From a virus: 26,630 nucleotides of DNA. Under the pieces are notes generated by a model. It saw nothing but the letters and a program-made list of their open reading frames with translations. It was not told the origin of the DNA and searched no databases. Position 1 is the first letter of the stretch, and each line of letters begins with the position of its first letter. Below, piece by piece: positions 1-15,852 of this stretch. A program made the translations under genes and the position numbers. The stretch covers positions 1-26,630 of the IMG/VR virus record IMGVR_UViG_3300025086_003984; one strand, written 5' to 3'.

Positions 1-118
1 TTGCTGGAGCTCCGTCAATCTTTGCTGAAATGTTACTCTCAGCGATAAACCAATCTAATACAGATAGATCACCAGTTAGGATGCTATCTTCGGGGTGTTC
101 GATGTGAGTGTTTTTCAT
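1..118 (-). CDS. Conserved cyanophage protein with KxDG motif, N-terminal fragment
   Basis: The reading frame opens with ATG at 118 and runs off the left edge, so only the first 39 residues are visible. It begins MKNTHIEHPEDSILTGDLSV and ends in SAKIDGAPA. I recognise this opening as a protein conserved in many T4-like cyanophages, a family I believe is catalogued as unknown function (possibly DUF6267). The K-I-D-G string resembles motif I (KxDG) of the ligase/nucleotidyltransferase superfamily, where the lysine carries the nucleotide. With only this motif visible, enzymatic activity is a guess. There is no Shine-Dalgarno sequence before the ATG. The gene follows directly on the terminator at 135-159, and a weak promoter candidate would place the transcript start at or next to the ATG. 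Confidence 0.75.
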   Translation of the reverse strand, partial: MKNTHIEHPEDSILTGDLSVLDWFIAESNISAKIDGAPA

Positions 119-124
119 ACTTAT

Positions 125-153
125 AGTATGGCATAAAAAAACCCCTTTTGCAA
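125..153 (-). promoter_or_regulatory. Weak sigma70-like promoter inside/after terminator
   Basis: TTGCAA (153-148, in the hairpin loop) lies 17 nt from CATACT (130-125). The -35 matches 5 of 6 consensus positions apart from its fourth base, and the -10 matches 4 of 6. The placement parallels better promoters at 3227-3255 and 5516-5544. Transcription would start almost on the ATG at 118, giving a leaderless message, so this is tentative. Confidence 0.3.
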
Positions 154-159
154 GGGGTT
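135..159 (-). terminator. Rho-independent terminator after the 169-459 gene
   Basis: On the minus strand an 8-bp stem AACCCCTT/AAGGGGTT with a GCAA (GNRA-type) loop is followed by a run of seven T. It begins about 10 nt past the stop codon of the 169-459 gene. Bases 150-170 are identical to 5541-5561. Confidence 0.9.
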
Positions 160-168
160 GTGTGACAG

Positions 169-459
169 TTACTTAACTGGTTGTGCCAGTTTCAAGAGTT
201 CTTTAACTCCTGCCTCTAAGTATAAAATAGGGAGCAAGATTAAAGATAAACCATCACGAGGATAATCATTTAGCAATGACTTAACACTTTTAGTCTCAAC
301 TTTAGCCTCTTCGTTAACATCATCCACTTGAATTTTTGCGGGTGATGTATTTATTTTAGAAGCAGACTTTCTACGAGTTGTTGATACTTTTTTGCGAGGT
401 GTGGTTGCCTTGCGTGTACGTGTCTTGCGTGTAGAAGTTGCTGCTGTCAAATTAGTCAA
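169..459 (-). CDS. Small Lys/Arg/Thr/Ser-rich protein with hydrophobic C-terminal segment
   Basis: This 96-aa protein has no family I recognise. Residues 1-40 are extremely rich in K, R, T and S (runs such as TRKTRTRKATTPRKK), like a histone H1 tail or a disordered nucleic-acid-binding arm. The middle is acidic (DDVNEEAK), and residues 70-92 form a hydrophobic or amphipathic helix containing LSLILLPILYLEAG. The start is TTG at 459, with AAGGAG ten bases upstream immediately after the methyltransferase stop codon; no ATG lies nearby in frame. It is the last gene of the unit 1879-169 and is followed by a strong terminator. A DNA- or membrane-associated role is possible but unproven. Confidence is good that it is a gene and low for its function. 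Confidence 0.7.
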   Translation of the reverse strand: MTNLTAATSTRKTRTRKATTPRKKVSTTRRKSASKINTSPAKIQVDDVNEEAKVETKSVKSLLNDYPRDGLSLILLPILYLEAGVKELLKLAQPVK

Positions 460-474
460 TTTATTTGGACTCCT

Positions 475-1332
475 TCATTCTACATCATTAAAGGCACTCG
501 TCAATCCATTGTGTACCACCTTGTTATCTGGCACACGCTGTTGAATTAGATCATTATACTCTTCATGCAACTCACATCCAATATAATGCCTACCCAAATC
601 CCTTGCTACCATTGCAGTTGTGCCACTTCCTATGAACGGATCTAATACAATATCATTCTCCTCACTACCAGCTAATATGCAAGGTGTTATTAACTCAGGT
701 GGAAATACTGCAAAATGTGAACCTTTATAAGGTTTTTTATTGATATTCCATACACTTCTCTTACGTCTTGTTGGTTCTTTGATAACATCTACATCAAAAT
801 AATAGTTCTGACTCTTACTCAATAAGAACATATATTCATGGGATTTAGTACACCTATCACGCACACTTTCAGGCATTGGATTAGGTTTATTCCATATAAT
901 ATCTTGTCTTAAGTACCACCCATCAGCCCTTAATGCAAACGCTAACATCCACGGAATACCAATTAAATCTTTCTCTTTTAGTCCCTCTAATTTATTACCA
1001 CGCCTCGCACATTTGTCTGGTAAATCTTGTTTAGTAGCAGACACAGTTTGTTTTACTAATGCCTGCCCTTTTCCTGGTCTATAGTTATAGTAACTATCAC
1101 CAATATTCACCCATAATGTACCATCATCACTCAAACAGTTTCTAACACTGCGGAATATATTCACGAGGTTATTAATATATTCTTCTGGTGTATCTTCTAA
1201 TCCTATTTGTTTACCTTCATCACCATAGTTTCTTAAACCATAATAAGGTGGGGATGTAACGCACATCCTCACCTTTTCATCAATTTGTGATAGTGTCTCA
1301 CGACAATCACCAAATAAAATAGTATCTTTCAT
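475..1332 (-). CDS. Beta-class DNA methyltransferase (N4-cytosine or N6-adenine)
   Basis: The gene encodes a 285-aa S-adenosylmethionine-dependent amino-methyltransferase of DNA. The catalytic motif IV is T-SPPY-YG (residues 26-32) near the N-terminus, and the AdoMet-binding motif I, DPFIGSGTT (231-239), is near the C-terminus; that order defines the beta class. SPPY, rather than DPPY, is commoner in N4-cytosine enzymes. The middle contains WNKPNPMPESVRDR (147-160) and an HFAVFP segment typical of the family. I take ATG at 1332 as the start; a TTG codon directly before it is also in frame. The start overlaps the stop of the 112-aa gene by one base. No restriction partner lies beside it, so it is probably a solitary phage methylase that marks phage DNA. 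An HNH nuclease gene lies 2 kb upstream in a separate transcription unit. Confidence 0.92.
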   Translation of the reverse strand: MKDTILFGDCRETLSQIDEKVRMCVTSPPYYGLRNYGDEGKQIGLEDTPEEYINNLVNIFRSVRNCLSDDGTLWVNIGDSYYNYRPGKGQALVKQTVSATKQDLPDKCARRGNKLEGLKEKDLIGIPWMLAFALRADGWYLRQDIIWNKPNPMPESVRDRCTKSHEYMFLLSKSQNYYFDVDVIKEPTRRKRSVWNINKKPYKGSHFAVFPPELITPCILAGSEENDIVLDPFIGSGTTAMVARDLGRHYIGCELHEEYNDLIQQRVPDNKVVHNGLTSAFNDVE

Positions 1333-2268: not shown

Positions 2269-2297
2269 ATAATGCCATATTCACGAGGGAAAGTCAA
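2269..2297 (-). promoter_or_regulatory. Candidate sigma70-like promoter for the 58/40-aa pair
   Basis: TTGACT (2297-2292) lies 17 nt from CATTAT (2274-2269). The -35 matches five of six and the -10 four of six. As at 1948-1953, the -35 contains the TGA stop codon of the preceding gene (2294-2296). A TATAAATG string (2270-2263) resembling a late promoter octamer lies just downstream, so the class of promoter is uncertain. Confidence 0.4.
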
Positions 2298-2512
2298 CTG
2301 ACAGTGGACAGTTCCCGAAGTGCCACCATCTTTGTAAATAATCCTTCCATATTATAATATAACTGATAATTTTCTGTTGTTACATAATGGCCTTTGATGT
2401 CACTACCATCACAGTGCCAGCCATACGCTTTAACCCTCTCCTCAACACCATCTATCCTCATTTTCTTACTACCATCGAGGTAAGAATGGTATCGCTCGTC
2501 TAGGTTAATCAT
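2294..2512 (-). CDS. Hypothetical protein (72 aa)
   Basis: This 72-aa protein starts MINLDERYHSYLDGSKKMRI and contains GWHCDGSDIKGHYVTTENYQ. I do not recognise it. It is mixed charged with several aromatic residues, one cysteine and three histidines, has no membrane segment, and is probably a small soluble fold. It stands alone between a promoter candidate (2536-2564) and another that overlaps its stop codon (2269-2297), so it may be its own transcription unit. No clear ribosome-binding site precedes the ATG at 2512. Codon use and base composition match its neighbours. Confidence 0.6.
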   Translation of the reverse strand: MINLDERYHSYLDGSKKMRIDGVEERVKAYGWHCDGSDIKGHYVTTENYQLYYNMEGLFTKMVALRELSTVS

Positions 2513-2798: not shown

Positions 2799-3014
2799 TT
2801 AATCCTCAATAAATTTTCTAGGGTTGTGCATGTTTTTAGCCATCTCAATAACCTGCTCTCGAATCTGCATCAAATCATCATAACATTGTTGATTGTACGC
2901 ACAACTCCTCAAATGAGTATCAGGTTTCATTAACGACTCAAGAAAGATGGCATGAGCAGCATCCCATCTCTCAAAAGGAGTTAACTTTTGGTCTAATGTC
3001 TTTTGATCTTTCAT
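2799..3014 (-). CDS. Hypothetical small protein (71 aa)
   Basis: This 71-aa protein starts MKDQKTLDQKLTPFERWDAA, then AHAIFLESLMKPDTHLRSC, and ends in NPRKFIED. It is predicted mainly helical, with two cysteines (CAYNQQC spacing). I do not recognise a family, though its setting beside two cyanophage-typical genes argues that it is a real conserved gene. GGGAG lies about nine bases before its ATG, and the ATG overlaps the upstream stop codon (ATGA). Its stop is two bases from the membrane-protein start, so the three genes form one operon. Confidence 0.7.
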   Translation of the reverse strand: MKDQKTLDQKLTPFERWDAAHAIFLESLMKPDTHLRSCAYNQQCYDDLMQIREQVIEMAKNMHNPRKFIED

Positions 3015-3205
3015 TTAATGATCTCCCAATCTTTGTCATCACTCTCCATGATCGAAAATAGATAACGACCTGAAATAGATGATAGAAATACTCTACCATC
3101 CTTACGTTTATCTATGCGACATGAATGTAACCTATCCATTTTATTCACGAAGCGAGAATTAGCCTCTTTGGATTTAGGTTTGACGTAGAGAAATTCAGAT
3201 TTCAT
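3011..3205 (-). CDS. Small basic cyanophage-type protein (64 aa)
   Basis: This 64-aa protein has a basic first half (MKSEFLYVKPKSKEANSRF, VNKMDRLHSCRIDKRKDG) and a beta-rich second half (RVFLSSISGRYLFSI) ending DKDWEIIK. I do not know a function. It is the first gene of the 3205-2602 operon. The promoter at 3227-3255 would give a leader of about 15 nt without a recognisable ribosome-binding site. Its last four bases overlap the next start (ATGA). Confidence 0.72.
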   Translation of the reverse strand: MKSEFLYVKPKSKEANSRFVNKMDRLHSCRIDKRKDGRVFLSSISGRYLFSIMESDDKDWEIIK

Positions 3206-3226: not shown

Positions 3227-3255
3227 AGTATAACATAAAAAAAGGGGGAAGTAAA
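3227..3255 (-). promoter_or_regulatory. Sigma70/T4-early-like promoter overlapping a terminator
   Basis: TTTACT (3255-3250) lies 17 nt from TATACT (3232-3227). The -35 sits in the loop of the terminator hairpin at 3237-3263, and the spacer includes its 3' arm and U-tract. The TTTACT-T form resembles the T4 early promoter -35 (GTTTACWT). It would drive the three-gene unit 3205-2602. Confidence 0.5.
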
Positions 3256-3263
3256 TCCCCCTT
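3237..3263 (-). terminator. Rho-independent terminator after the HNH nuclease gene
   Basis: The minus strand has an 8-bp stem AAGGGGGA/TCCCCCTT (3263-3256 and 3249-3242) with a 6-nt loop, followed by seven T. It lies nine bases past the stop codon at 3273. The linker AACTGTCACA matches the linker before two other terminators in the window. Confidence 0.9.
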
Positions 3264-3272
3264 GTGACAGTT

Positions 3273-4990: not shown

Positions 4991-5401
4991 GTATGTATTA
5001 TATTTAGCATATAACACATCTTCCATACGCTGTGCCTCTAGTTCCCATGGCTGGTCACTATAGTCCGTCTGAGAGTGATCTATGCCCTTCCAGAGGCGTT
5101 GATTACGCTTATCCCTTAAATCACCACGCACATGCTGTAATATGTGCCAGAGTTCATGTAGAAGGGTTTTGGTATACTCTTCTACTGACAAGCGATTGTG
5201 GATCTCGATCTCAAATTCACGAGGTCTAGAATCAGAATCAGTAGACCACTGCCAACCAAATACACCTTCCCTGAGTAGGCCCTTATGGTCTACATTCACG
5301 AAGATCTTATGGCGTGGGAGATACTTATCCACGAACCAAGTCACGATGCTCTCACACCTGTTCGTGGAATATTTGTAACCTGAGTGACTAAGAAAGAGCA
5401 T
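4970..5401 (-). CDS. HExxH zinc metallopeptidase-like protein
   Basis: This 143-aa protein has the zincin motif HELWH (residues 82-86) within KTLLHELWHILQH. A glutamate-rich helix follows, QPWELEAQRMED (117-128), where E120 or E122 could be the third zinc ligand. The layout resembles SprT/ImmA-type minimal metallopeptidases and is common in cyanophage genomes. In those families the function is cleavage or binding of DNA-bound or regulatory proteins; the target here is unknown. It has no signal peptide, so it should act in the cytoplasm. Its ATG lies inside the end of the 35-aa reading frame (14-nt overlap), suggesting coupled translation from the promoter at 5516-5544. Confidence 0.8.
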   Translation of the reverse strand: MLFLSHSGYKYSTNRCESIVTWFVDKYLPRHKIFVNVDHKGLLREGVFGWQWSTDSDSRPREFEIEIHNRLSVEEYTKTLLHELWHILQHVRGDLRDKRNQRLWKGIDHSQTDYSDQPWELEAQRMEDVLYAKYNTYLTSKTN

Positions 5402-5495
5402 TGTTAATCACCAGTTGAGAAACACGCACACCCCAATTCATAAGAATCATAAAGGATGTGATGAAAATCAATTTTTCAGATCCAGTGAGTTGCAT
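5388..5495 (-). CDS. Putative membrane microprotein (35 aa)
   Basis: The 35-aa frame starts MQLTGSEKLIFITSFMILMN and continues WGVRVSQLVINNALS. It has one hydrophobic helix (residues 9-21) and would be a single-span or peripheral membrane peptide. Three features support it: it begins about 14 nt after the start predicted from a good promoter (5516-5544), it fills the gap between that promoter and the metallopeptidase, and it overlaps the metallopeptidase start by 14 nt. There is no strong Shine-Dalgarno sequence, and I do not recognise the family. It could instead be only a leader that couples translation. Confidence 0.45.
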   Translation of the reverse strand: MQLTGSEKLIFITSFMILMNWGVRVSQLVINNALS

Positions 5496-5515: not shown

Positions 5516-5544
5516 ATTATAAAACCCCTCACCATTTCTGGCAA
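5516..5544 (-). promoter_or_regulatory. Sigma70-like promoter overlapping the tail-array terminator
   Basis: TTGCCA (5544-5539, five of six) lies 17 nt from a perfect TATAAT (5521-5516). The -35 is inside the 5' arm of the terminator hairpin 5521-5550, and the -10 follows its T-run. Initiation near 5509 would produce a transcript without the hairpin, for the 35-aa/metallopeptidase unit. Confidence 0.6.
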
Positions 5545-5550
5545 GGGGTT
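5521..5550 (-). terminator. Rho-independent terminator closing the tail-fibre array
   Basis: The minus strand forms an 11-bp stem (AACCCCTTGCC with GGTGAGGGGTT, including two G-U pairs) with a 6-nt loop, then TTTT. It follows the stop codon at 5577 by about 26 nt. Bases 5541-5561 are identical to 150-170. Confidence 0.88.
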
Positions 5551-5576
5551 GTGTGACAGTTGTTCAAGTGGAGTAA

Positions 5577-6866
5577 TTATGTATCATATAGCTGCTTACC
5601 TGAAATTGCAAGACCACCTTGACTAGCTGCAGCTACATTGTAGAAAGAAGCATTTCCTATCAGAGTTGGTGATGAGCGTCGCCAGTCACCATAGGGTGAG
5701 AGAGGCGGAATATTATTGGCTCCTGCTGTACCATTATTTTCCTGTAGTCCACCAAGAAACCATAATGTTCCATCAGTTTTAGTCCAGAAAGTACCACCCT
5801 TGAATTGCATCCCATAACTCGTAGAATTCCACGTAGTATCAGTTCCTACTTGAGTTGGTGATGACATAGAATTTTTACTACTAGGACTAGTTCTAGCAGT
5901 ATTAAGTCCTAAGTTTCCATAAGTATTACCTCCCCATGACCATAATGTTCCATCTGTTTTGGTTCCATGAGAACTTCTATTTCCTTGGTCATTATTCATA
6001 TGAATTGATCGCCAATTAGTATTAGTTCCTACTTGTCTTGGTGATGACCATGAACTTGGGTTTTCATTCATTCCTAAACACCCATCACTATGATATCCCC
6101 ATGACCATAATGTTCCATTTGCTTTAATTGCCATAGTACCTGTATTACCAACTGCAAAGGAGTTAAATCCTGTTGCCCACGTACCAGGTATTTGAGTTGG
6201 TGATGAATATGGTGAAGTATTATTAAGTCCTAATCTCGATGAATTATATCCCCATGACCAAAGTGATCCATCGGTTTTAACTGCTAATGTAGTATTCTTA
6301 TGACCTGTCTTACACGCAACCCAATTAGTTCCAGGAATTTGAACTGGTGATGAATAGAAGATATTGCTAGTATTAGTTCCTTGATTTATTCCCAATCCTC
6401 CACTCACATTACTTCCCCACTTCCACAATGTTCCGTCTGTTTTGACTCCCCACCTTCCTGTAGTCCATGCACCCGCAAACTCCCAATCAGTGCCAGTTCC
6501 TAGTTGAGTAGGTGATGATACATTAGTAGGTTCTGGTGTATTAAGTCCTAATGCTCCAGATTGATTAGTTCCCCATACCCAGTGGGTTCCATCATATTTA
6601 ATACCACAAGCACTATTAGCGGAAGCGTATACTCGCTTCCATGTAGAATCAGTTCCTACTTGAGTTGGTGATGAACGCCTTCCAGCTGGAAATACATTAT
6701 TAAATCCACTGAATCCTCTACTATTACTTCCCCATGCATATAATTCTCCCGATCCACTGGCTGCACCAGTAAACATTAAAGAGGCAACACCACCACCCAT
6801 TCCAGTTAAACCTAGAAAGGGTGCTTCTTTCAGTGGTGCTTCTTTAACTTTCCAAAAACTATCCAT
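5577..6866 (-). CDS. RCC1-repeat propeller protein, tail-fibre-associated
   Basis: This 429-aa protein is essentially one RCC1-like beta-propeller. I count seven repeats of the form KTDGTLWSWG-N-G-LGLN...SSPTQVG-TW between about residues 40 and 425, the number needed for one closed seven-blade ring. The short N-terminus has a duplicated KEAP string and a hydrophobic FLGLTGMGGGVASLMF segment (18-33), and lacks the fibre leader of its three paralogues. AAGGAGG precedes the ATG at 6866, only 13 nt after the 612-aa gene stop, so the two are probably co-translated. A structural or receptor-binding tip role is inferred from context. It ends the array before a strong terminator. Confidence 0.85.
   Translation of the reverse strand: MDSFWKVKEAPLKEAPFLGLTGMGGGVASLMFTGAASGSGELYAWGSNSRGFSGFNNVFPAGRRSSPTQVGTDSTWKRVYASANSACGIKYDGTHWVWGTNQSGALGLNTPEPTNVSSPTQLGTGTDWEFAGAWTTGRWGVKTDGTLWKWGSNVSGGLGINQGTNTSNIFYSSPVQIPGTNWVACKTGHKNTTLAVKTDGSLWSWGYNSSRLGLNNTSPYSSPTQIPGTWATGFNSFAVGNTGTMAIKANGTLWSWGYHSDGCLGMNENPSSWSSPRQVGTNTNWRSIHMNNDQGNRSSHGTKTDGTLWSWGGNTYGNLGLNTARTSPSSKNSMSSPTQVGTDTTWNSTSYGMQFKGGTFWTKTDGTLWFLGGLQENNGTAGANNIPPLSPYGDWRRSSPTLIGNASFYNVAAASQGGLAISGKQLYDT
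5600..6740 (-). repeat. Coding tandem repeats, RCC1 blades (7 copies)
   Basis: Imperfect units of about 150-165 bp recur seven times inside the 429-aa gene. The best-conserved DNA blocks encode SSPTQ(V/I)G and KTDGTLWSWG; on the plus strand they appear as TTGAGTTGGTGATGA and CCATGACCATAATGTTCCAT. The same blocks occur in the three other propeller genes. Confidence 0.85.
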
Positions 6867-6879
6867 TGTTTAATCCTCC

Positions 6880-8718
6880 TTAATCAAAGTTAGTATAGTT
6901 TCCAAGCACCTTGTAGGTGTTTGCAGCAGTTTTTATAATCGTAAAGGCATTTACATCCAGACCCCCATCTCCACCAGCAGCAGGAGTTGTTGCTCCTGCC
7001 CACTCTACAGTGTGAGCACTACCATCAATATTGAATTGGTTAATGTAACTAGCAGCCGCTGCAGTAGTTATAAGAGTTACAGTACAAACATTACCAGTAT
7101 CCATAGCACTGTTTAAAGTGGTGCTACTGTTAATTCTTAGGTTTGGTATTGCTGTCCCTGTTTCTTGAGTAGAGAAGTAATGAACCATACCATTCTCAAG
7201 ATCAATATTAAGATTATCACTCAACTTACCAGCAGTTATCTTTACATTTTCATCGAATAAACCATTACTAAATTGGAATCCACCAGTTGATGTAATGCGA
7301 AGTCTTTCTACAGTTGCTGCATTAAAAGGATCATTAGATGCAGCAGCACTTGTTGTTTTAAATACTAAATGTGCTCCTTCATCATCCCCATCACCAAGTG
7401 CATACATATTTGCAACAGAATGACCATCCAATGCAGTCCAGTTGATTGCACCAATAGCACCAGTTGTATTTGTATTTGTTCTCTTTAATTCTAATCTTGC
7501 TGAAGCACTAATACCAGCAACAGTAACTTTACCTCCTGGTAAATCAGTTCCTATACCAACTGATCCTGCTGATGAGATGCGAACTCTTTCACTACCTCCT
7601 GCTTGAAATGCCATATTAGAAGGTGCAGCCACAGTTCCTGCAGTCACAATACCTGCATTTCCTGCATCTATACCAGTATTATTAATCGTTACTCCACTAC
7701 CAATAGTAGCAGCAGTACCAACAATCTTACCTGTGACTATAACACCACCACCTTGATCATCCGTAGCAGTTTCAAGACGTTTTACATTATTTTCATATAA
7801 TTCAACTGAGGAGTTATTAGATGCAAGGAGCATCGTTTCACCATTGGTACTGTTCCATAAACGAATACCAGTTCCGTTAGATTGCAAACTTAACTCACCT
7901 GTACCTGCATCACTTACTATCGAATTAGTCCCATTATGGAATATTTCTAAATCTCCCGAATCACCAAATTTAGCTTTTACACTATCTGCTAATGATAATC
8001 CAGCACCACAAGTAGTAACACCCAAAGAACGTAAACCTGTAGCCGTAATAAAACCAGCAACACTAACACCTGTATTGATACCTAGTGCTGCTTTATCAGC
8101 ATCATAAAGAATATTTACATGTGTTTGTCCATAGATGATAGCACCTGCACCATCTTGAGATGCTGCTGTTGGAGCATTGGTTGAGCCAATACCAATAGTC
8201 TTGTCCTGAACATTAAGTTCATTAGTATTAATAATAGTTTCAGTTCCCTGAACTGTGAGGTTACCAGGAATTGTGACTGTATTACCTGAGCCACCAATTG
8301 TAAAATCTTCTGATTTAAGAGAAGATGATCCTACACTATCATCCGCAACAGTATTAAGTGCAAGTGCTGTTCCTAAAAGAACACCGAAGAATGTTAGACC
8401 AGAAGTAGGAGCAGTAGTAAAAGTGAGTGTTGAACCAGAAACAGTGTAGTCTTGACCAGCATTTTGCATCACACCACCAACACTGATGATGAGTTGTTGA
8501 ACATTTGCAGGTTCTACGTTAACAGCCGCTACTTTTAACGTGAAGGTTGTATCTGAACCATCAAAATCACTTGAAATATCATCAATCTCTCTAATATTAG
8601 CAACAGTCGAAGGATCAAAACTTCTCCATACTGTACCATTGTACTGAAAAGTAAACCCAGAGGTCGCATCTGTAAAGGTATCACCTGACGAAGGGGAATC
8701 TGGAAAATTAATAGCCAT
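6880..8718 (-). CDS. Virion structural / tail-fibre protein without propeller
   Basis: This 612-aa protein is built like marine phage fibre proteins. The N-terminal FPDSPSSGDTFTDATSGF to YNGTVWRSFDP (1-36) is a likely attachment module. Next come a beta domain (50-120) and the segment TETIINTNELNVQDKTIGIG (159-178) with DGAGAIIYGQTH. Repeats of the GDLEIFHNGTNS and VELYENNVKRLET type (255-318) follow, then SAGSVGIGT (383-391). The C-terminal MVHYFSTQETG to YKVLGNYTNFD (511-612) is a beta domain that I know from other cyanophage structural proteins. There is no peptidase-type intramolecular chaperone. The late promoter octamer at 8745-8752 lies 27 nt upstream. It probably trimerises. Confidence 0.85.
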   Translation of the reverse strand: MAINFPDSPSSGDTFTDATSGFTFQYNGTVWRSFDPSTVANIREIDDISSDFDGSDTTFTLKVAAVNVEPANVQQLIISVGGVMQNAGQDYTVSGSTLTFTTAPTSGLTFFGVLLGTALALNTVADDSVGSSSLKSEDFTIGGSGNTVTIPGNLTVQGTETIINTNELNVQDKTIGIGSTNAPTAASQDGAGAIIYGQTHVNILYDADKAALGINTGVSVAGFITATGLRSLGVTTCGAGLSLADSVKAKFGDSGDLEIFHNGTNSIVSDAGTGELSLQSNGTGIRLWNSTNGETMLLASNNSSVELYENNVKRLETATDDQGGGVIVTGKIVGTAATIGSGVTINNTGIDAGNAGIVTAGTVAAPSNMAFQAGGSERVRISSAGSVGIGTDLPGGKVTVAGISASARLELKRTNTNTTGAIGAINWTALDGHSVANMYALGDGDDEGAHLVFKTTSAAASNDPFNAATVERLRITSTGGFQFSNGLFDENVKITAGKLSDNLNIDLENGMVHYFSTQETGTAIPNLRINSSTTLNSAMDTGNVCTVTLITTAAAASYINQFNIDGSAHTVEWAGATTPAAGGDGGLDVNAFTIIKTAANTYKVLGNYTNFD

Positions 8719-8744
8719 TCTTCACTACTACACTACTTTTTATG

Positions 8745-8752
8745 TATTTATA
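8745..8752 (-). promoter_or_regulatory. T4-type late promoter octamer
   Basis: The minus strand reads TATAAATA, the T4 late promoter -10 recognised by gp55/gp33-modified polymerase. It lies 27 nt before the ATG of the 612-aa structural gene and 17 nt beyond the stop of the 671-aa gene, so the 612/429 pair may be transcribed independently late in infection. Confidence 0.55.
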
Positions 8753-8768
8753 TCAGCTTGCATTTAAC

Positions 8769-10784
8769 TTATCCTGCCTTCTGGAAACCCATTCCCATAT
8801 TTTGTACAGCATAAATTATTTCCCAAGAAGTACCAGGTATTTGAGTTGGTGATGAAAGTTTTGTATTAGCTGGTTGATTGTGTCCTAATGCCATTTTATC
8901 ATTAAATCCCCAAGACCAAGCAGTTCCATCAGTTTTAGTTGCAAAACAAACCTCATCACAACCTACAACAGTACTCCAAGTAGTCTCCGATCCCACTTGT
9001 TTAGGTGATGAATATTCTGTTGTATTATTTTGTCCCATTTGTCCATTACCATTATTTCCACATGACCATAATGTTCCATTTGTTTTAATTCCAAAAAATC
9101 CTTTATGGCAACCACCAGATGATTGACTCCAACTACCAGGAATTTGAACTGGTGATGAATATCTTGTGGTATTACTTTGTCCTAATGCTCCAGTTTGATT
9201 CTCTCCCCATACCCATAATGTACCATCTGTTTTGATACATCCCATAGAATATGATCCACTATGTTGAAGTTTCAACCAATCAGTATCAGTTCCTACTTGA
9301 GTAGGTGATGATCGCTTTGTTGTATTAGGTATATTTTGTCCTAATTGTCCATTACCATTATTTCCCCATGACCATAGTGTTCCATCTGCTTTAACACCTG
9401 CTGTATAATAATTGTAACCACAAATAGAAAGTTCACTCGTACTCCAAGTACCAGGAATTTGAGTTGGTGAAGAAACATCATCTCTATGATTAAGTCCTAA
9501 TGGGCCACTATAACTGTTACTTCCCCATGCCCATAATGTTCCATCAGTTTTAGTTGCTAACATATTATTCTCACCAGCACCTGTAGATCTATTCCAAGTA
9601 GTGCCAGGTATTTGAGTTGGTGATGATCTACTATTTCTATCATTGTGTCCTAAGTTTCCGCCAGCACCGTATCCCCATGACCATAATGTTCCATCAGTTT
9701 TAGTTGCACTGGCAAAGAGCATACCATTTCTAGTATAACCAAACTGACCATATTTCCAATTAGTATTAGTTCCTACTTGAGTAGGTGATGATTTCATATT
9801 TGATTGTTCATCATCGTTTCCTCCTAATTGTCCATGATTATTACCTCCCCATGTAAACATACTAAATGTTTGAGGATCAACTCTCACTATTTCTTTTCCA
9901 TACCATTTCTCACCCATAGTACGAGTGACTAATAAGAATACTTGTGCATCAGTGCTTCTAGGGTTGTCATTAATTAAAGTAGGTTCCGATCCACCACTCC
10001 AACCAATACTCACAGGCCATGTGATGGTTCTTGCGGTGGTATTATCATCCTTTGTTCTTATGAAATATACATTTCCATTTGATGTATTAGCAAATGATAC
10101 TGTGGTATCCGCACTTTGAGTTGCAAATATTAAATTACCATTACTTAAATCTATTGTGGTAGCAGCAGATGTAATTCCAACCGATTGTTGTGATACAGGG
10201 CCTGAAGATACTCCCTCTAAATTACTACCATCTCCATGAAAATAGGTAGCAGTAATAACTCCTGCCCTTACCTGTGAGGTTCCTGCTCCTGTCCACCCAC
10301 CATTATAATTGACTCCTAATCCACCTGATGTTCCTGTTGCATTACCAGTTACGTTTCCTGTGACATTCCCAGCTATAGTACCAGTGACATTTCCTGTAAC
10401 ATTACCTACTACATTACCTGTTACATTACCTGTGATTGGGCCTGATAATGATGTGGCAGTTACAAGTCCCACAGTGATTGCAGGTTGACTTGTTAGATCT
10501 GTAACTGAACCAGTGAGATTACCAACAAATGATGATGCAGTCGTGACTCCAGCAGATATATCAGGTGCAGAATCAGCAAGTCTTTGTATATTTCCTGTGA
10601 GATTACCTACAAAAGATGTGCCAGTTACAACACCAGCAGTTACATCAGTCCCATTAACCAGACTCTTTGCAGACCCAACAACATTACCTGTGAATGATGT
10701 AGCAGTAATGACTCCAGTGGCAGTCAGACCACTCACAGTCATAATACCGATAGGTGCAATTAATTGTGCCTTTTCCTGACTCAT
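8769..10784 (-). CDS. Modular tail-fibre protein with RCC1 propeller (671 aa)
   Basis: This is the simplest of three long paralogues. The leader MSQEKAQLIAPIG (1-13) is followed by TATGVITATSFTGNVVGSA and two further TA/TG-SFVGNLTG repeats up to about 92. A GNVT tetrapeptide array (119-152) and a FHGDGSNLEGV motif (182-192) come next. A small beta domain opens TIDLSNGNLIF (210-220) and includes ARTITWPVSIGW (251-262). The propeller (about 308-671) has seven RCC1 repeats. The likely role is a trimeric fibre or spike presenting a propeller for receptor or glycan binding. The AATAAATA octamer at 10801-10808 precedes it, with no Shine-Dalgarno sequence. Neighbouring genes duplicate its design. 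Confidence 0.88.
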   Translation of the reverse strand: MSQEKAQLIAPIGIMTVSGLTATGVITATSFTGNVVGSAKSLVNGTDVTAGVVTGTSFVGNLTGNIQRLADSAPDISAGVTTASSFVGNLTGSVTDLTSQPAITVGLVTATSLSGPITGNVTGNVVGNVTGNVTGTIAGNVTGNVTGNATGTSGGLGVNYNGGWTGAGTSQVRAGVITATYFHGDGSNLEGVSSGPVSQQSVGITSAATTIDLSNGNLIFATQSADTTVSFANTSNGNVYFIRTKDDNTTARTITWPVSIGWSGGSEPTLINDNPRSTDAQVFLLVTRTMGEKWYGKEIVRVDPQTFSMFTWGGNNHGQLGGNDDEQSNMKSSPTQVGTNTNWKYGQFGYTRNGMLFASATKTDGTLWSWGYGAGGNLGHNDRNSRSSPTQIPGTTWNRSTGAGENNMLATKTDGTLWAWGSNSYSGPLGLNHRDDVSSPTQIPGTWSTSELSICGYNYYTAGVKADGTLWSWGNNGNGQLGQNIPNTTKRSSPTQVGTDTDWLKLQHSGSYSMGCIKTDGTLWVWGENQTGALGQSNTTRYSSPVQIPGSWSQSSGGCHKGFFGIKTNGTLWSCGNNGNGQMGQNNTTEYSSPKQVGSETTWSTVVGCDEVCFATKTDGTAWSWGFNDKMALGHNQPANTKLSSPTQIPGTSWEIIYAVQNMGMGFQKAG
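8790..9860 (-). repeat. Coding tandem repeats, RCC1 blades (7 copies)
   Basis: Seven imperfect units of about 150 bp lie inside the 671-aa gene, sharing DNA blocks with the other three propeller genes, for example TTGAGTTGGTGATGA and CATAATGTTCCATC on the plus strand. Confidence 0.85.
10329..10430 (-). repeat. GNVT tetrapeptide coding array
   Basis: About eight imperfect 12-bp units encode G-N-V-T/V-G style repeats (residues 119-152 of the 671-aa protein). Synonymous changes break perfect identity, but plus-strand units such as ACATTACCTGTT recur. Confidence 0.8.
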
Positions 10785-10800
10785 GAGAATATTTTTTAGT

Positions 10801-10808
10801 TATTTATT
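10801..10808 (-). promoter_or_regulatory. Late promoter-like octamer
   Basis: AATAAATA on the minus strand, 17 nt before the ATG at 10784, fits the NATAAATA form of the T4-type late -10. The 15 bases at 10792-10806 are identical to 13161-13175 ahead of the 776-aa paralogue, where the octamer is degraded to CTAAATAA. Confidence 0.4.
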
Positions 10809-10824
10809 GAATTCATAAAGATGG

Positions 10825-13155
10825 TTAGTTACTCTTTTCAACAGCACACCAGAAGTCCATATTTGCCGACACAGTATCCCAATTAGTGCTACTCCCTACT
10901 TGAATTGGTGATGAATATTGTGTTCTATTATTTTGTCCCAATTCTCCATAAGGATTAGCTCCCCATGCCCATAATGATCCATCACCTTTAATTGCTATTG
11001 TTGAATAAACTGCATTATCAAATTTATTATTTCCCGCAACCCATGATCCAGGTATTTGTTTTGGTGATGAATAGTTGCCACTTGTTTGGTTTTGTCCCAA
11101 CATACCACTGGAATTGAGTCCCCACATCCATAATGTATTATCAGTTTTAACTGCCATCATGCAATTATAAGCTGAGGATACCACTCTAGACCAAGTAGTA
11201 TTAGTTCCAACTTGTCTTGGTGATGAATATTGTGTTTGATTACCTTGTCCTAATTGTCCTTGATGATTTCTACCCCATGTCCACAATGTTCCATCAGTCT
11301 TAATCGCTGCATTATCATGCATACCAGAAGGAGCAGCACTGGCCCACGTTGCATCAGTTCCTATTTGAGTAGGTGATGATCTCCAAGTTCCAGGCCCAGA
11401 TGGGCCTGCCTCATTAAGTCCTAATTCTCCATACTCATTATATCCCCATGTCCATATTGTTCCATCCGTTTTAATTACCAAACGGTTGTTACCTGCTCCA
11501 CCAACAGCACCATCATTATTACTCCAATCAGTATCAGTTCCTATTTGTATGGGTGAGGAATAACTTACATTATTATTGTTACCACTTACTCCACCTCCCC
11601 ACTGCCACAATGTTCCATCAGTTTTAGTCATGACTATACCAGCACCACCAGCAAACTGACCTCCTCCCCAAGTACCAGGAATTTGAACGGGTGATGAAAA
11701 ACCGTGATTAGCTGGGCCTCCACCTCCACCAACAGAATTTTGTCCCATTTGTCCATAATTATTTCTTCCCCATCCCCATAGAGTTCCATCATCTTTAAGA
11801 CCCATTCCGCCGTAATTACCTTGTCCTCCTCCTACAATTTTTGACCAACTAACATTTGTACCTATTTGAGTTGGTGATGATTTATGACTACTTTCTGGTG
11901 CATTTAGTCCTAATGCACCATATTCATTTTTACCAGCCGTAAATAATAAACCATTTTCTTTGTCTAATTTAAAGGGTTCCCATGCATACCAATTTAGTCC
12001 AGCATCTCGTGTAAGGAATTGGAATTGCTGACTATCACCATCTTGAGTTGCATCACTAATTAAAGTAGGAGCAGATCCACCATTCCAACTAACGGAAGTG
12101 GGCCATGTGATCGATCTTGGAGTGCCATTAGCATCTTTTATCCTAATAATAGTAACATCCATTGCAGTCTCTGTATTCGCAAAGGATATAGTTGTGTCGG
12201 CACTCTGATTAAAGGTTATCATATTACCAGCACTTAAATCTATTGTCGTTGTAGCAGTTACAGTGATGGTTCCAATCATACCAGAGTGATTTCCACACTG
12301 ATAATAATAAGTACCAGCAGTGTTAGGTGTCCAAGAAACAGTGCCACTTTGAGAACCTTGATTGGTTGCTGCAGGAGTGCTTACATTTGCACCACCATCT
12401 GATACTCTAATATAAAATGGATGTCCTGAAGCATCCACAACAAAATTAAGTGTATCACCTACCTCAACACTAACACTAGCATTACTCCCAGAGACTGAAC
12501 CATTTCTATCAGTTCCTGAAAGAGTATATGCAGATGATCCAGAGGCAGTAACATTTATTGAAAAGGTTGATCCAGGAACAACTTGAGTATTATAATTAGT
12601 CGCTGCAATACCTGAGAGATTACTACCATCTCCACTAAAACTAATAGCCGTCAATACACCCACATGAATATTCGCACCAGAAGTTACACTTTTTGCATAT
12701 CCAGTTATATTACCAGTTACATTACCAGTTACATTTCCTGTTGAAACTCCCGTAACATTTCCCGTTATATTACCAGTTACATTTCCCGTTATATTACCAT
12801 CTGACGTTCCTGAGACATTAAATCCTGTGGCATTGACCGCACCTGCCTTAAAACCAGTTCCACGGAACATGCTAGTTGCCGTTCCAGTAAAATCTCCTGT
12901 AAAACTTGATGCTGTAAATTGTCCTACCTTAATATCTGCCCCTGTATTAATTCCTGTTGCCGTCCCTGTAAAATCTCCTGAGAAAGTGGTTGCATTTACA
13001 TCACCTAGATTTAAATTACCACCACTTATAATACTCGTCGCACTTCCTACCACATCACCCGTAAAAGAAGAGGCAGTCATAACACCAGTGACCACCACTC
13101 CTCCTGCGGTCACCACTCCTATGGGTTGAATTAATTGTGCCTTAGTCTGACTCAT
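10825..13155 (-). CDS. Modular tail-fibre protein with cupredoxin-like domain and RCC1 propeller (776 aa)
   Basis: The leader MSQTKAQLIQPIG is followed by SFTGDVVGSA-type repeats (1-115), a GNVTGNITG array (120-152) and FSGDGSNLSGI (173-183). Where the 671-aa paralogue has a short linker, about 110 residues are inserted (190-302) that read as a cupredoxin: GHPFYI with H245, then GTVSWTPNTAGTYYYQCGNH and SGMIGTITV with C287, H290 and M293, the usual type-1 copper ligand set. The common beta domain opens TIDLSAGNMITF (305-316). The propeller (about 402-776) has seven RCC1 repeats. Copper binding is predicted only from ligand spacing; the fold could simply serve as a beta-sandwich adhesin. No canonical late octamer precedes it, so it may be read through from the 891-aa gene. 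Confidence 0.87.
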   Translation of the reverse strand: MSQTKAQLIQPIGVVTAGGVVVTGVMTASSFTGDVVGSATSIISGGNLNLGDVNATTFSGDFTGTATGINTGADIKVGQFTASSFTGDFTGTATSMFRGTGFKAGAVNATGFNVSGTSDGNITGNVTGNITGNVTGVSTGNVTGNVTGNITGYAKSVTSGANIHVGVLTAISFSGDGSNLSGIAATNYNTQVVPGSTFSINVTASGSSAYTLSGTDRNGSVSGSNASVSVEVGDTLNFVVDASGHPFYIRVSDGGANVSTPAATNQGSQSGTVSWTPNTAGTYYYQCGNHSGMIGTITVTATTTIDLSAGNMITFNQSADTTISFANTETAMDVTIIRIKDANGTPRSITWPTSVSWNGGSAPTLISDATQDGDSQQFQFLTRDAGLNWYAWEPFKLDKENGLLFTAGKNEYGALGLNAPESSHKSSPTQIGTNVSWSKIVGGGQGNYGGMGLKDDGTLWGWGRNNYGQMGQNSVGGGGGPANHGFSSPVQIPGTWGGGQFAGGAGIVMTKTDGTLWQWGGGVSGNNNNVSYSSPIQIGTDTDWSNNDGAVGGAGNNRLVIKTDGTIWTWGYNEYGELGLNEAGPSGPGTWRSSPTQIGTDATWASAAPSGMHDNAAIKTDGTLWTWGRNHQGQLGQGNQTQYSSPRQVGTNTTWSRVVSSAYNCMMAVKTDNTLWMWGLNSSGMLGQNQTSGNYSSPKQIPGSWVAGNNKFDNAVYSTIAIKGDGSLWAWGANPYGELGQNNRTQYSSPIQVGSSTNWDTVSANMDFWCAVEKSN
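10840..11940 (-). repeat. Coding tandem repeats, RCC1 blades (7 copies)
   Basis: Seven imperfect units lie inside the 776-aa gene. The third blade is shortened (GGGVSGNNNN) and the second carries a glycine-rich loop (VGGGGGPANHG), but the SSP-Q signature is kept in all seven. Confidence 0.83.
12700..12798 (-). repeat. GN(V/I)T tetrapeptide coding array
   Basis: About eight 12-bp units encode GNITGNVTG-type repeats (residues 120-152 of the 776-aa protein). On the plus strand, units such as TTACCAGTTACA and TTTCCCGTTATA alternate. Confidence 0.8.
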
Positions 13156-13176
13156 ATCTCTTTTTTAGTTATTTAG

Positions 13177-15852
13177 TTAAGCTAGTTTGGTCGCTACTGA
13201 CACTCTTTCTCCTAAACTTACCTGTTCACCCCAATTAGTACCAGTAACTTGAGTTGGTGATGATCTATCACCTGCAGATGGATATCCAGCAATATTAATT
13301 CCTAATCTTCCATAAGAATTACTTCCAAATGCCCACATGGTTCCATCTGTTTTGGTTGCTACAGTCCATTGATAACCCATATCGACAGATCTCCATGTTG
13401 TACCAGGTAATTGAACTGGTGATGAATAATTTGTTTTACTATTATGTCCTAAGTTTCCTTTAGCATTATATCCCCATGTCCATAGTGTTCCATCAGTTTT
13501 GACTGCTCCCATAGAATTATATCCACCAGTAGTATCCGACCATGTACCAGGAATTTGAGTGGGTGATGAACGTTGTGTTTGACTATTATGTCCTAAGGTT
13601 CCATAACCATTATATCCCCATGACCATAATGTTCCATCAGTTTTAAGTCCACCAAGATAATCCGAACAAGCAAAAGTCTGACTCCAGTTACCAGGAAGTT
13701 GAGTTGGTGATGAACGTTGAGTTAAATTATTCAACCCCAATCTTCCACCAGATGCTTTACCACAAACCCACAGTGTATCATCAGTTTTTATTCCTAAGAA
13801 GTAATTAGATCCAGATTTCCCTACATGAGACCAATCAGTATCAGTTCCTACTTGCTTTGGTGATGAACGTTGAACATTACCCTCATTTTGTGCCATTGCT
13901 CCATTACTATTACCATATCCCCATGACCACATTGTTCCATCAGTTTTAACTCCTTGAGCAGCATTAGCTAACTTAACACTAGACCAACTACCAGGAAGTT
14001 GAGTTGGTGATGAACGTTTAGTTTGATCACTCAGTCCTAATTGATATCTAGCATTACGTCCCCATAGCCACAGTGTATCATCAGTTTTAATTGCTCCACA
14101 TGATTGGGTTGCACCACTATCAGACTTATGAACAAGAGTTTTCCAAGCACCAGATATTTGAGTTGGTGATGAGCAATCAGAAGATGTTGGTTGATTCTGT
14201 CCTAATCCTCCATTTGTATTATCTCCCCAAATGAATAATGCTAAATCTTGACTATCACTTTTTATTTCTTCCCATGCATTATAGTTAAGTCCAGTATCAA
14301 CAGTCGTAAAACGGAATACTTGGACAGCAAGATCTCTTGGATTTGTGATTAATGTAGGAGTAGTATCATTATTCCACTTAACCCTATCTGGCCATGTTAT
14401 GGTGTAATCACTCACCGTTAATGTTCCTGTGTTGGTGATGGTTTGAGCACCAGCAGTTGGATCTCCTTGAGCATTGAGTGTTTGAGGAGTTACAGCAGCA
14501 GCAGTAGTAGAACTATCTGATTGACAACATAATAATTTGGTATTGGTTATATTGGTGAGTTCTGCGGATGGAGGTATAAAAGCAGCCGTATAAAGTGCTG
14601 TTCCTTTTAGAACTCTAAGATTACTTATTACTCCATCCATCAAATAATTTGTATTATAATATCCACCTACAGCAATATATGTGCCGTCATAATCGTGGGT
14701 ATCAGACTGAGTTATTACTGCAGTTCCATCTATATAAAGTGTTGATGTTCCCGAAGATCTGACATAAGCAGTATGAATCCATGTATTGTTTGAAGGAGGA
14801 GAAACAGTGAGACCAGTTTTGCTGTATGTACCAGCACCATATATCTGCCATCCCTCTCCAGCTTGATGATCCCACGCAACAGCTAGTGTATCTCCATAGT
14901 CTGTGGCTAATCCACCTGAAGTGTTAGATATTTGCCAAAACCCGCTTATAGTACCGACATCGTGTATATATACCCAACATTCAACGGTAAAGTCACCAGT
15001 TCCCATAGTGAAATCACTACTAGCACTTGTTGTATTTAAATAATCACCTGTATCATCAAAATCAACTCCACCTGTAGCATAACTTATGTTCCAACTTGCA
15101 CTATAAGATGCTGTATTTCTTATAAATGTTATTTGTTCTGCAGCAGACGTGCTTGCAAACCCAACAGTGGTGGTAGCAGCATCTGCTTGATCAAAGTAAA
15201 TTAAATTTCCATATGATAAATCAATAATTGTTTCTGCACCAGTCGCAGTAATTTCTTGAGCAATATACGCACTCGATCCTGCTCCCACTAATGCACTTCC
15301 ATCACCATATAGTTCAAGAGCAGTACAAACACCCACTCCTAAATTAGATGTTCCTGCACCTGTCCATACATTAATACCATTAATTCCTAATCCTTTTGCT
15401 AATCCTGAGACATTTCCTGTTACATTTCCTTCTACATCTCCCGATATATTACCCGTTATATTACCCGTCACATCACCACTTACATTTCCCGTCACACCTC
15501 CAGTTACAAAGCCTACAAAACTAGTAGCAGTTATAAGTCCTACATTTAAGTTTGGTGTTCCTGTTAATCCAGCAGCCTTTCCCGTTGCATCTCCTACGAA
15601 ACTAGTTGCTGTTGTAATTCCTAAATTTAATTGAGGTGTCCCTGTTATATTTGCTGCGTGTCCATCTCCTTGACCAACAAAACTAGATGCTGTAACTATT
15701 CCAACATTTAAATCAGTAATACCTGCTAAAGCAGTTGCACTACCAGCGATGTCACCTTTTAAAGAGGTAGCAGTAACAACTCCCGTAGCAGTCATTCCTG
15801 GCAAATTCATATTGCCCTGAGGATCGACTAGTTGGGCCTTAGGTAGAGACAT
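13177..15852 (-). CDS. Modular tail-fibre protein with nested LamG domain and RCC1 propeller (891 aa)
   Basis: This is the largest of the paralogues. The leader MSLPKAQLVDPQG is followed by TATGVVTATSLKGD and three NVGIVTASSFVG-type repeats (1-113). A GNVSGDVTGNITG array lies at 114-150 and a YGDGSALVGAG motif at 182-192. The common beta domain begins TIIDLSYGNLIYF (208-220), breaks off after ITFIRNT, and resumes at TLTVSDYTITWPDRVKW (477-493). Between these lies a LamG/concanavalin-like lectin domain (255-445), with GTGDFTVECWVY, WIHTAYVRSSGTSTLYIDGT and DGVISNLRVLKGTALYT. The propeller (about 538-891) has seven RCC1 repeats. It is first in the array, with the late octamer TATAAATA at 15889-15896. 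A carbohydrate-binding adhesin role is inferred from LamG. Confidence 0.88.
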   Translation of the reverse strand: MSLPKAQLVDPQGNMNLPGMTATGVVTATSLKGDIAGSATALAGITDLNVGIVTASSFVGQGDGHAANITGTPQLNLGITTATSFVGDATGKAAGLTGTPNLNVGLITATSFVGFVTGGVTGNVSGDVTGNITGNISGDVEGNVTGNVSGLAKGLGINGINVWTGAGTSNLGVGVCTALELYGDGSALVGAGSSAYIAQEITATGAETIIDLSYGNLIYFDQADAATTTVGFASTSAAEQITFIRNTASYSASWNISYATGGVDFDDTGDYLNTTSASSDFTMGTGDFTVECWVYIHDVGTISGFWQISNTSGGLATDYGDTLAVAWDHQAGEGWQIYGAGTYSKTGLTVSPPSNNTWIHTAYVRSSGTSTLYIDGTAVITQSDTHDYDGTYIAVGGYYNTNYLMDGVISNLRVLKGTALYTAAFIPPSAELTNITNTKLLCCQSDSSTTAAAVTPQTLNAQGDPTAGAQTITNTGTLTVSDYTITWPDRVKWNNDTTPTLITNPRDLAVQVFRFTTVDTGLNYNAWEEIKSDSQDLALFIWGDNTNGGLGQNQPTSSDCSSPTQISGAWKTLVHKSDSGATQSCGAIKTDDTLWLWGRNARYQLGLSDQTKRSSPTQLPGSWSSVKLANAAQGVKTDGTMWSWGYGNSNGAMAQNEGNVQRSSPKQVGTDTDWSHVGKSGSNYFLGIKTDDTLWVCGKASGGRLGLNNLTQRSSPTQLPGNWSQTFACSDYLGGLKTDGTLWSWGYNGYGTLGHNSQTQRSSPTQIPGTWSDTTGGYNSMGAVKTDGTLWTWGYNAKGNLGHNSKTNYSSPVQLPGTTWRSVDMGYQWTVATKTDGTMWAFGSNSYGRLGINIAGYPSAGDRSSPTQVTGTNWGEQVSLGERVSVATKLA
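13200..14230 (-). repeat. Coding tandem repeats, RCC1 blades (7 copies)
   Basis: Seven imperfect units of about 147-160 bp lie inside the 891-aa gene. The plus-strand string AGTTGAGTTGGTGATGAACG recurs in several of its units and in shorter form in all the propeller genes. Confidence 0.85.
15403..15513 (-). repeat. GN(V/I)(T/S) tetrapeptide coding array
   Basis: About nine 12-bp units encode GNVSGDVTGNITGNISG-type repeats (residues 114-150 of the 891-aa protein). This copy is more diverged than the other two arrays, with D and E replacing N in several units. Confidence 0.78.

Follow-up and report, generated by a model that had tools for sequence, protein, structure and literature searches.

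The window analysed here, an IMG/VR virus record of 26,630 bases, belongs to a relative of the T4-like marine cyanophages. It contains three exact matches to the 10-mer AACTGTCACA, all on the minus strand, and no match to the reversed motif used as a control; the three copies (A, B and C), which the first-pass annotation had already listed, are beyond chance expectation. Each is followed on its 3' side by a hairpin and then a -10 box, and the constant quantity is the distance from motif to -10, exactly 30 nt in A, B and C. Two further elements of the same class, with right halves at 512-521 and 2304-2313, have no terminator. The features are as follows.

1-118, minus strand: gene after copy A, N-terminus of a DUF6267/T4-GC71 homologue, apparently leaderless
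125-130, minus strand: copy A -10 box CATACT, 30 nt from the operator and 6 nt ahead of the ATG
140-159, minus strand: copy A terminator hairpin AACCCCTTGCAAAAGGGGTT and T-run, within the operator-to--10 spacer (MFE -12.0)
148-153, minus strand: copy A -35-like TTGCAA
161-170, minus strand: copy A right half-site AACTGTCACA, exact motif, palindromic with the left half and overlapping the stop codon of ORF 169-459
175-184, minus strand: operator left half-site ACAACCAGTT, copy A (PWM score 25.8 against a threshold of 15.75)
477-535, minus strand: terminator-free element TGTGCCAGAT-aaca-AGGTGGTACA, 29 nt, TAGAAT (PWM score 24.5)
2269-2327, minus strand: terminator-free element GGTGGCACTT-cggg-AACTGTCCAC, 29 nt, CATTAT (PWM score 25.1)
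3011-3205, minus strand: ORF (phrog_1653), next gene after copy B
3227-3232, minus strand: copy B -10 box TATACT, 30 nt from the motif
3242-3263, minus strand: copy B terminator hairpin and T-run
3263-3272, minus strand: copy B right half-site AACTGTCACA from the motif search, left half weak
5516-5521, minus strand: copy C -10 box TATAAT, 30 nt from the motif
5523-5550, minus strand: copy C strong hairpin, only four T after it (MFE -19.7)
5539-5544, minus strand: copy C -35-like TTGCCA
5552-5561, minus strand: copy C right half-site AACTGTCACA, exact motif
5566-5575, minus strand: copy C left half-site TACTCCACTT (PWM score 28.8)

The three copies resemble one another less closely than the fixed layout first ascribed to them would suggest. 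The order of hairpin, T-run and -10 box holds in A and B, but the position of the stop codon varies, overlapping the motif in A (AAG TAA CTG), directly adjoining it in B and lying 15 nt upstream of it in C. A and B combine a GC-rich hairpin with a run of seven T, whereas the T-run reported for C amounts to only four, which makes that copy a poor intrinsic terminator. The 17-nt gap between a -35-like hexamer and the -10 is present with TTGCAA in A, TTTACT in B and TTGCCA in C, but the -10 boxes, described as TATACT/TATAAT-like, include CATACT in A beside TATACT in B and TATAAT in C. The 21 identical bases noted in A and C are AACTGTCACACAACCCCTTGC (150-170 and 5541-5561). A palindrome around AACTGTCACA is clear in A and C, and B has a good right half and a weak left half. 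The terminator-free element at 477-535 sits within the 3' end of a methyltransferase ORF, ahead of ORF 169-459.

Three other features of the minus strand deserve mention. A 35-codon ORF, MQLTGSEKLIFITSFMILMNWGVRVSQLVINNALS (5388-5495), too small for the cut-off of the ORF list, starts 26 nt past the start of the copy C -10, a distance near the norm for the class. At 1915-1953 a TTGACA-17-TATACT promoter overlaps the hairpin ACCCTATCGGTTATACTGATAGGGT, with a short T-run next and the palindrome absent, and is possibly an ordinary overlap of promoter and terminator. Large genes with many RCC1-like repeats and short repeats of 12-nt period occupy 5577-15852; RCC1 was confirmed by Pfam in ORF 5577-6866, and the products are possibly host-interaction or tail-fibre proteins.

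Beyond the window, AACTGTCACA proves to be the right half of a palindrome, TGTGMCASTT-N4-AASTGKCACA, which precedes TATAAT by 28-31 nt with a mode of 29. The weight matrix was seeded on the right half and the -10 only, the left half playing no role in the choice of seed, and it yielded the left half as the mirror image of the right. Distances from AACTGTCACA (at most one mismatch) to TATAAT were counted in the window, in T4 and in nine genomes of T4-like cyanophages. They fall at 28, 29, 30 and 31 nt in 8, 24, 14 and 5 cases respectively, with a background of about 3 per position; the reversed motif shows no rise at 28-31 nt, and T4 has no distance peak. In IMG/VR, at least 120 stretches have CAGTT-N4-AACTGTCACA with TATAAT 28-31 nt beyond it, and none has the pair at a spacing of 20-23 nt. 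At about 5% false discovery, the same nine genomes on which the matrix was trained contain 191 operators, 178 of them with a -10, which lies at 29 nt in 90; the nulls for each genome came mostly from one Markov shuffle, and from ten shuffles for six genomes. The -10 in these elements is often TGnTATAAT. A check against known RNA families in Rfam returned no match, and the papers listed by a literature search on the 10-mer are unrelated. Exact copies in P-TIM40, S-SSM5 and P-HM2 whose own side lacks a -10 were considered as a coding repeat, an idea we rejected because they are mostly left halves of palindromes facing the other way.

The first-pass annotation had read the copies as an insulator cassette, with AACTGTCACA as the linker of a terminator and a host-type -35/-10 pair starting the next transcript. 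Part of that description stands: elements do lie at unit borders with a terminator and then a promoter, the layout holds in copies A and B, and the conservation in related phages proposed as a check was found, an IMG/VR scan for the motif plus T6 giving dozens of copies with the same layout. The role given to the motif does not. In whole genomes, exact copies of AACTGTCACA without any terminator have TATAAT at the same distance, so that the motif is half of an operator locked to the -10 and retained where the hairpin is missing; the same hairpin-free copies rule it out as a terminator-associated RNA element. Most elements of the nine genomes have no terminator, and "insulator" consequently fits only the hairpin-bearing subset. 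We regard the cassette as an improbable account of the class, the more so as the -35 is weak (below).

Hairpins are nevertheless in excess in the element spacers. A hairpin of MFE -9 or lower with at least five T occurs in 22 of 178 spacers, compared with 0.6 in shuffles; conversely, 18 of 157 strong terminator-like sites fall in element spacers, where 0.16 would be expected. Hairpins without a T-run are also in excess there (13 vs 3.2 expected). Upstream of the DUF6267 gene the hairpin is present in some phages and absent or different in others, with the operator, its spacing and the -10 kept throughout. Since only a subset of elements has the hairpin, the predicted terminator is an optional part nested in the promoter. 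The spacer, being fixed at about 29 nt, calls for a compact terminator, and this explains the constant look of the copies seen at first. The literature searched yielded no description of such a nested terminator, although one may exist elsewhere.

A -35-like hexamer 17 nt from the -10 forms a weak peak in all classes of element and is strongest in hairpin copies, where it often lies near the hairpin loop. The first-pass claim that such a hexamer sits in the hairpin region is borne out above chance, with a match of at least 5/6 to TTGACA in 27% of elements with hairpin and T-run against 1% of shuffles, and in 12-27% across classes. In hairpin-free elements it amounts to about 0.2 bit per position or less, a weakness that would make a plain host-type -35/-10 promoter unlikely, although some host-type contribution is possible.

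The cassettes had also been thought to be shuffled. Some exchange is indeed visible, though clear cases are few: at one locus (L571) identical spacers stand at two places ahead of unrelated genes, and in another comparison (L527 against L531 and L523) the upstream region and promoter are common and the downstream sequence differs. To judge from these cases, gene exchange at the borders of the element is plausible.

Most elements lie 3' of a gene on the same strand and often reach into its stop codon; the ATG that comes next on that strand is mostly 25-35 nt past the start of the -10. The downstream genes are small early-type ORFs near dam and helicase; in P-SSM2 and P-HM2 many elements stand in the small-gene cluster near those two genes. 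In many DUF6267/T4-GC71 orthologues, as at copy A (116-130 of the window, minus strand), the -10 is six nt ahead of the ATG, a spacing suggestive of a leaderless phage mRNA.

The nine T4-like marine cyanophages have about 14-29 elements per genome, and Syn9 and P-TIM40 are among the carriers. The IUPAC form of the palindrome, with at most three mismatches, gives 4-13 sites in each T4-like cyanophage (control 0-1) and was found in none of T4, KVP40, P-SSP7 and Ma-LMM01. Elements are not above chance in T4, P-SSP7 or HTVC008M, the last a Kyanoviridae phage of SAR11. A variant is found in S-TIM5 (JQ245707), a cyanophage of unrelated lineage, which has 12 sites against about 1 in shuffles, nine of them within 163-171 kb; its core is GCCAGTT-N4-AACTGGCC, mostly 29-30 nt ahead of a -10. 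Several variant elements in that 163-171 kb region share AGCCCTGT right after the operator. A match with TATAAT at 29 nt came from a 'Flavobacteriales' bin (MAG Flavobacteriales TMED113), and the contig concerned and others of its bin are dense in the element and look like misbinned T4-like cyanophage DNA. Loci of Pyrinomonadaceae SSF56 and Nostocales (L422-L461) carry several perfect TGTGACAGTT-N4-AASTGTCACA palindromes, mostly with no nearby -10 at the phage spacing, which are perhaps transposon ends or sites of another regulator.

Taken together, we consider it highly likely that marine cyanophages have in this element a phage-specific promoter, one that probably depends on an activator. 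In this model a dimer of a DNA-binding protein would occupy TGTGMCASTT-N4-AASTGKCACA at about -41 to -64 and help a host sigma-70-type RNA polymerase, faced with a weak -35, to start transcription at the TATAAT 28-31 nt downstream. In some border copies an intrinsic terminator may have evolved inside the spacer of about 29 nt, and at these the upstream transcript would end where the next begins. The promoter is probably early, to judge by its position beside small early-type genes and by the study of Doron et al. discussed below.

As candidates for the binding protein, a phylogenetic profile picked out phrog_495, phrog_507, a 47-aa basic protein and thyX as fitting the distribution of the element; phrog_495, phrog_507 and the rest were set aside as regulators on predicted folds that gave no DNA-binding match. 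The activator may also belong to the cyanobacterial host, as a transcription factor that the phage recruits, a special case of the promoter reading to which we give some, but clearly the smaller part, of our confidence. A host factor is favoured by the sharing of the element between two phage lineages whose hosts are of the same kind: the element tracks cyanobacterial hosts (T4-like cyanophages and the unrelated S-TIM5, with none in the SAR11 phage HTVC008M), and early promoters need a factor that is available at once. However, P-SSP7 infects Prochlorococcus and lacks the element, and 151 Cyanobiaceae genomes contain only 16 weak palindromes (control 2), nearly all without a -10 at 29 nt. A host regulon is thus unsupported in Cyanobiaceae, and the Nostocales and acidobacterial palindromes mostly lack a properly spaced -10; the want of a matching regulon in hosts favours a factor encoded by the phage.

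The palindrome might also be a repressor or roadblock site, where a bound dimer stops read-through or silences early genes, the -10 being part of the repressed promoter. Its position at gene ends, mostly in one orientation, agrees with this, and where it lies immediately 5' of a terminator it could aid stopping. The nearest parallel, the stoperators of mycobacteriophages, are likewise repeated protein sites near gene ends (the protein being putative in our case), but they are asymmetric and genome-wide and work through an immunity repressor that terminates elongation (PMC9283540), whereas the cyanophage site is palindromic and locked to a -10. A site tied to a -10 at 28-31 nt, in a promoter whose -35 is poor, better suits activation, and lytic T4-like phages have no need of an immunity repressor; we think this explanation unlikely.

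An activated promoter invites comparison with the middle promoters of T4, in which a phage-specific box also stands upstream of a host-type -10 (often TGn) and the -35 is weakened or replaced. The MotA box, TGCTTtA, is bound by a monomer and has its centre at -30, at a distance of 12 bp from the -10 (PMC2988021); motA and asiA are reported to be missing from cyanophages (PMC2984593). The cyanophage elements depart from the layout of a TGCTTtA box 12 +/- 1 bp upstream of the -10: what they conserve is a 24-bp palindrome ending about 29 nt (28-31 nt) from it. Ordinary intrinsic terminators beside sigma-70 promoters share the GC hairpin, T-run and -10 box, but here the hairpin lies within the operator-to--10 spacer and is optional.

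Closer still, Doron et al. in 2016 reportedly described a novel regulatory element of early genes in the T4-like cyanophages Syn9 and P-TIM40, which we take to be, perhaps, the palindrome and -10 described here: the phages are the same, and in both cases an element foreign to T4 would control cyanophage genes. If the two are identical, the promoter itself may be known already; the nested terminator is not known to be part of what that study described.

A bolder joint reading, held tentatively and at somewhat less than even confidence, is that two unrelated cyanophage lineages, the T4-like Kyanoviridae and S-TIM5, use the same fixed-distance palindromic activator site for an undescribed early regulator, that terminators have repeatedly evolved in its 29-nt spacer with the -35 near the loop, and that the resulting modules of about 60 bp may serve gene exchange at borders. 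T4-like cyanophages are among the commonest viruses of the ocean, and it is still to be explained how they take over host transcription when they have none of T4's Alt, AsiA and MotA (PMC2984593). A defined operator with exact spacing would provide a bait for the regulator and would allow promoters to be called in any genome or metagenome of cyanophages. With a nested terminator, a streamlined genome could finish one transcript and begin another in a space of about 60 bp; the cases of exchange suggest that gene content is reshuffled at the borders of the element.
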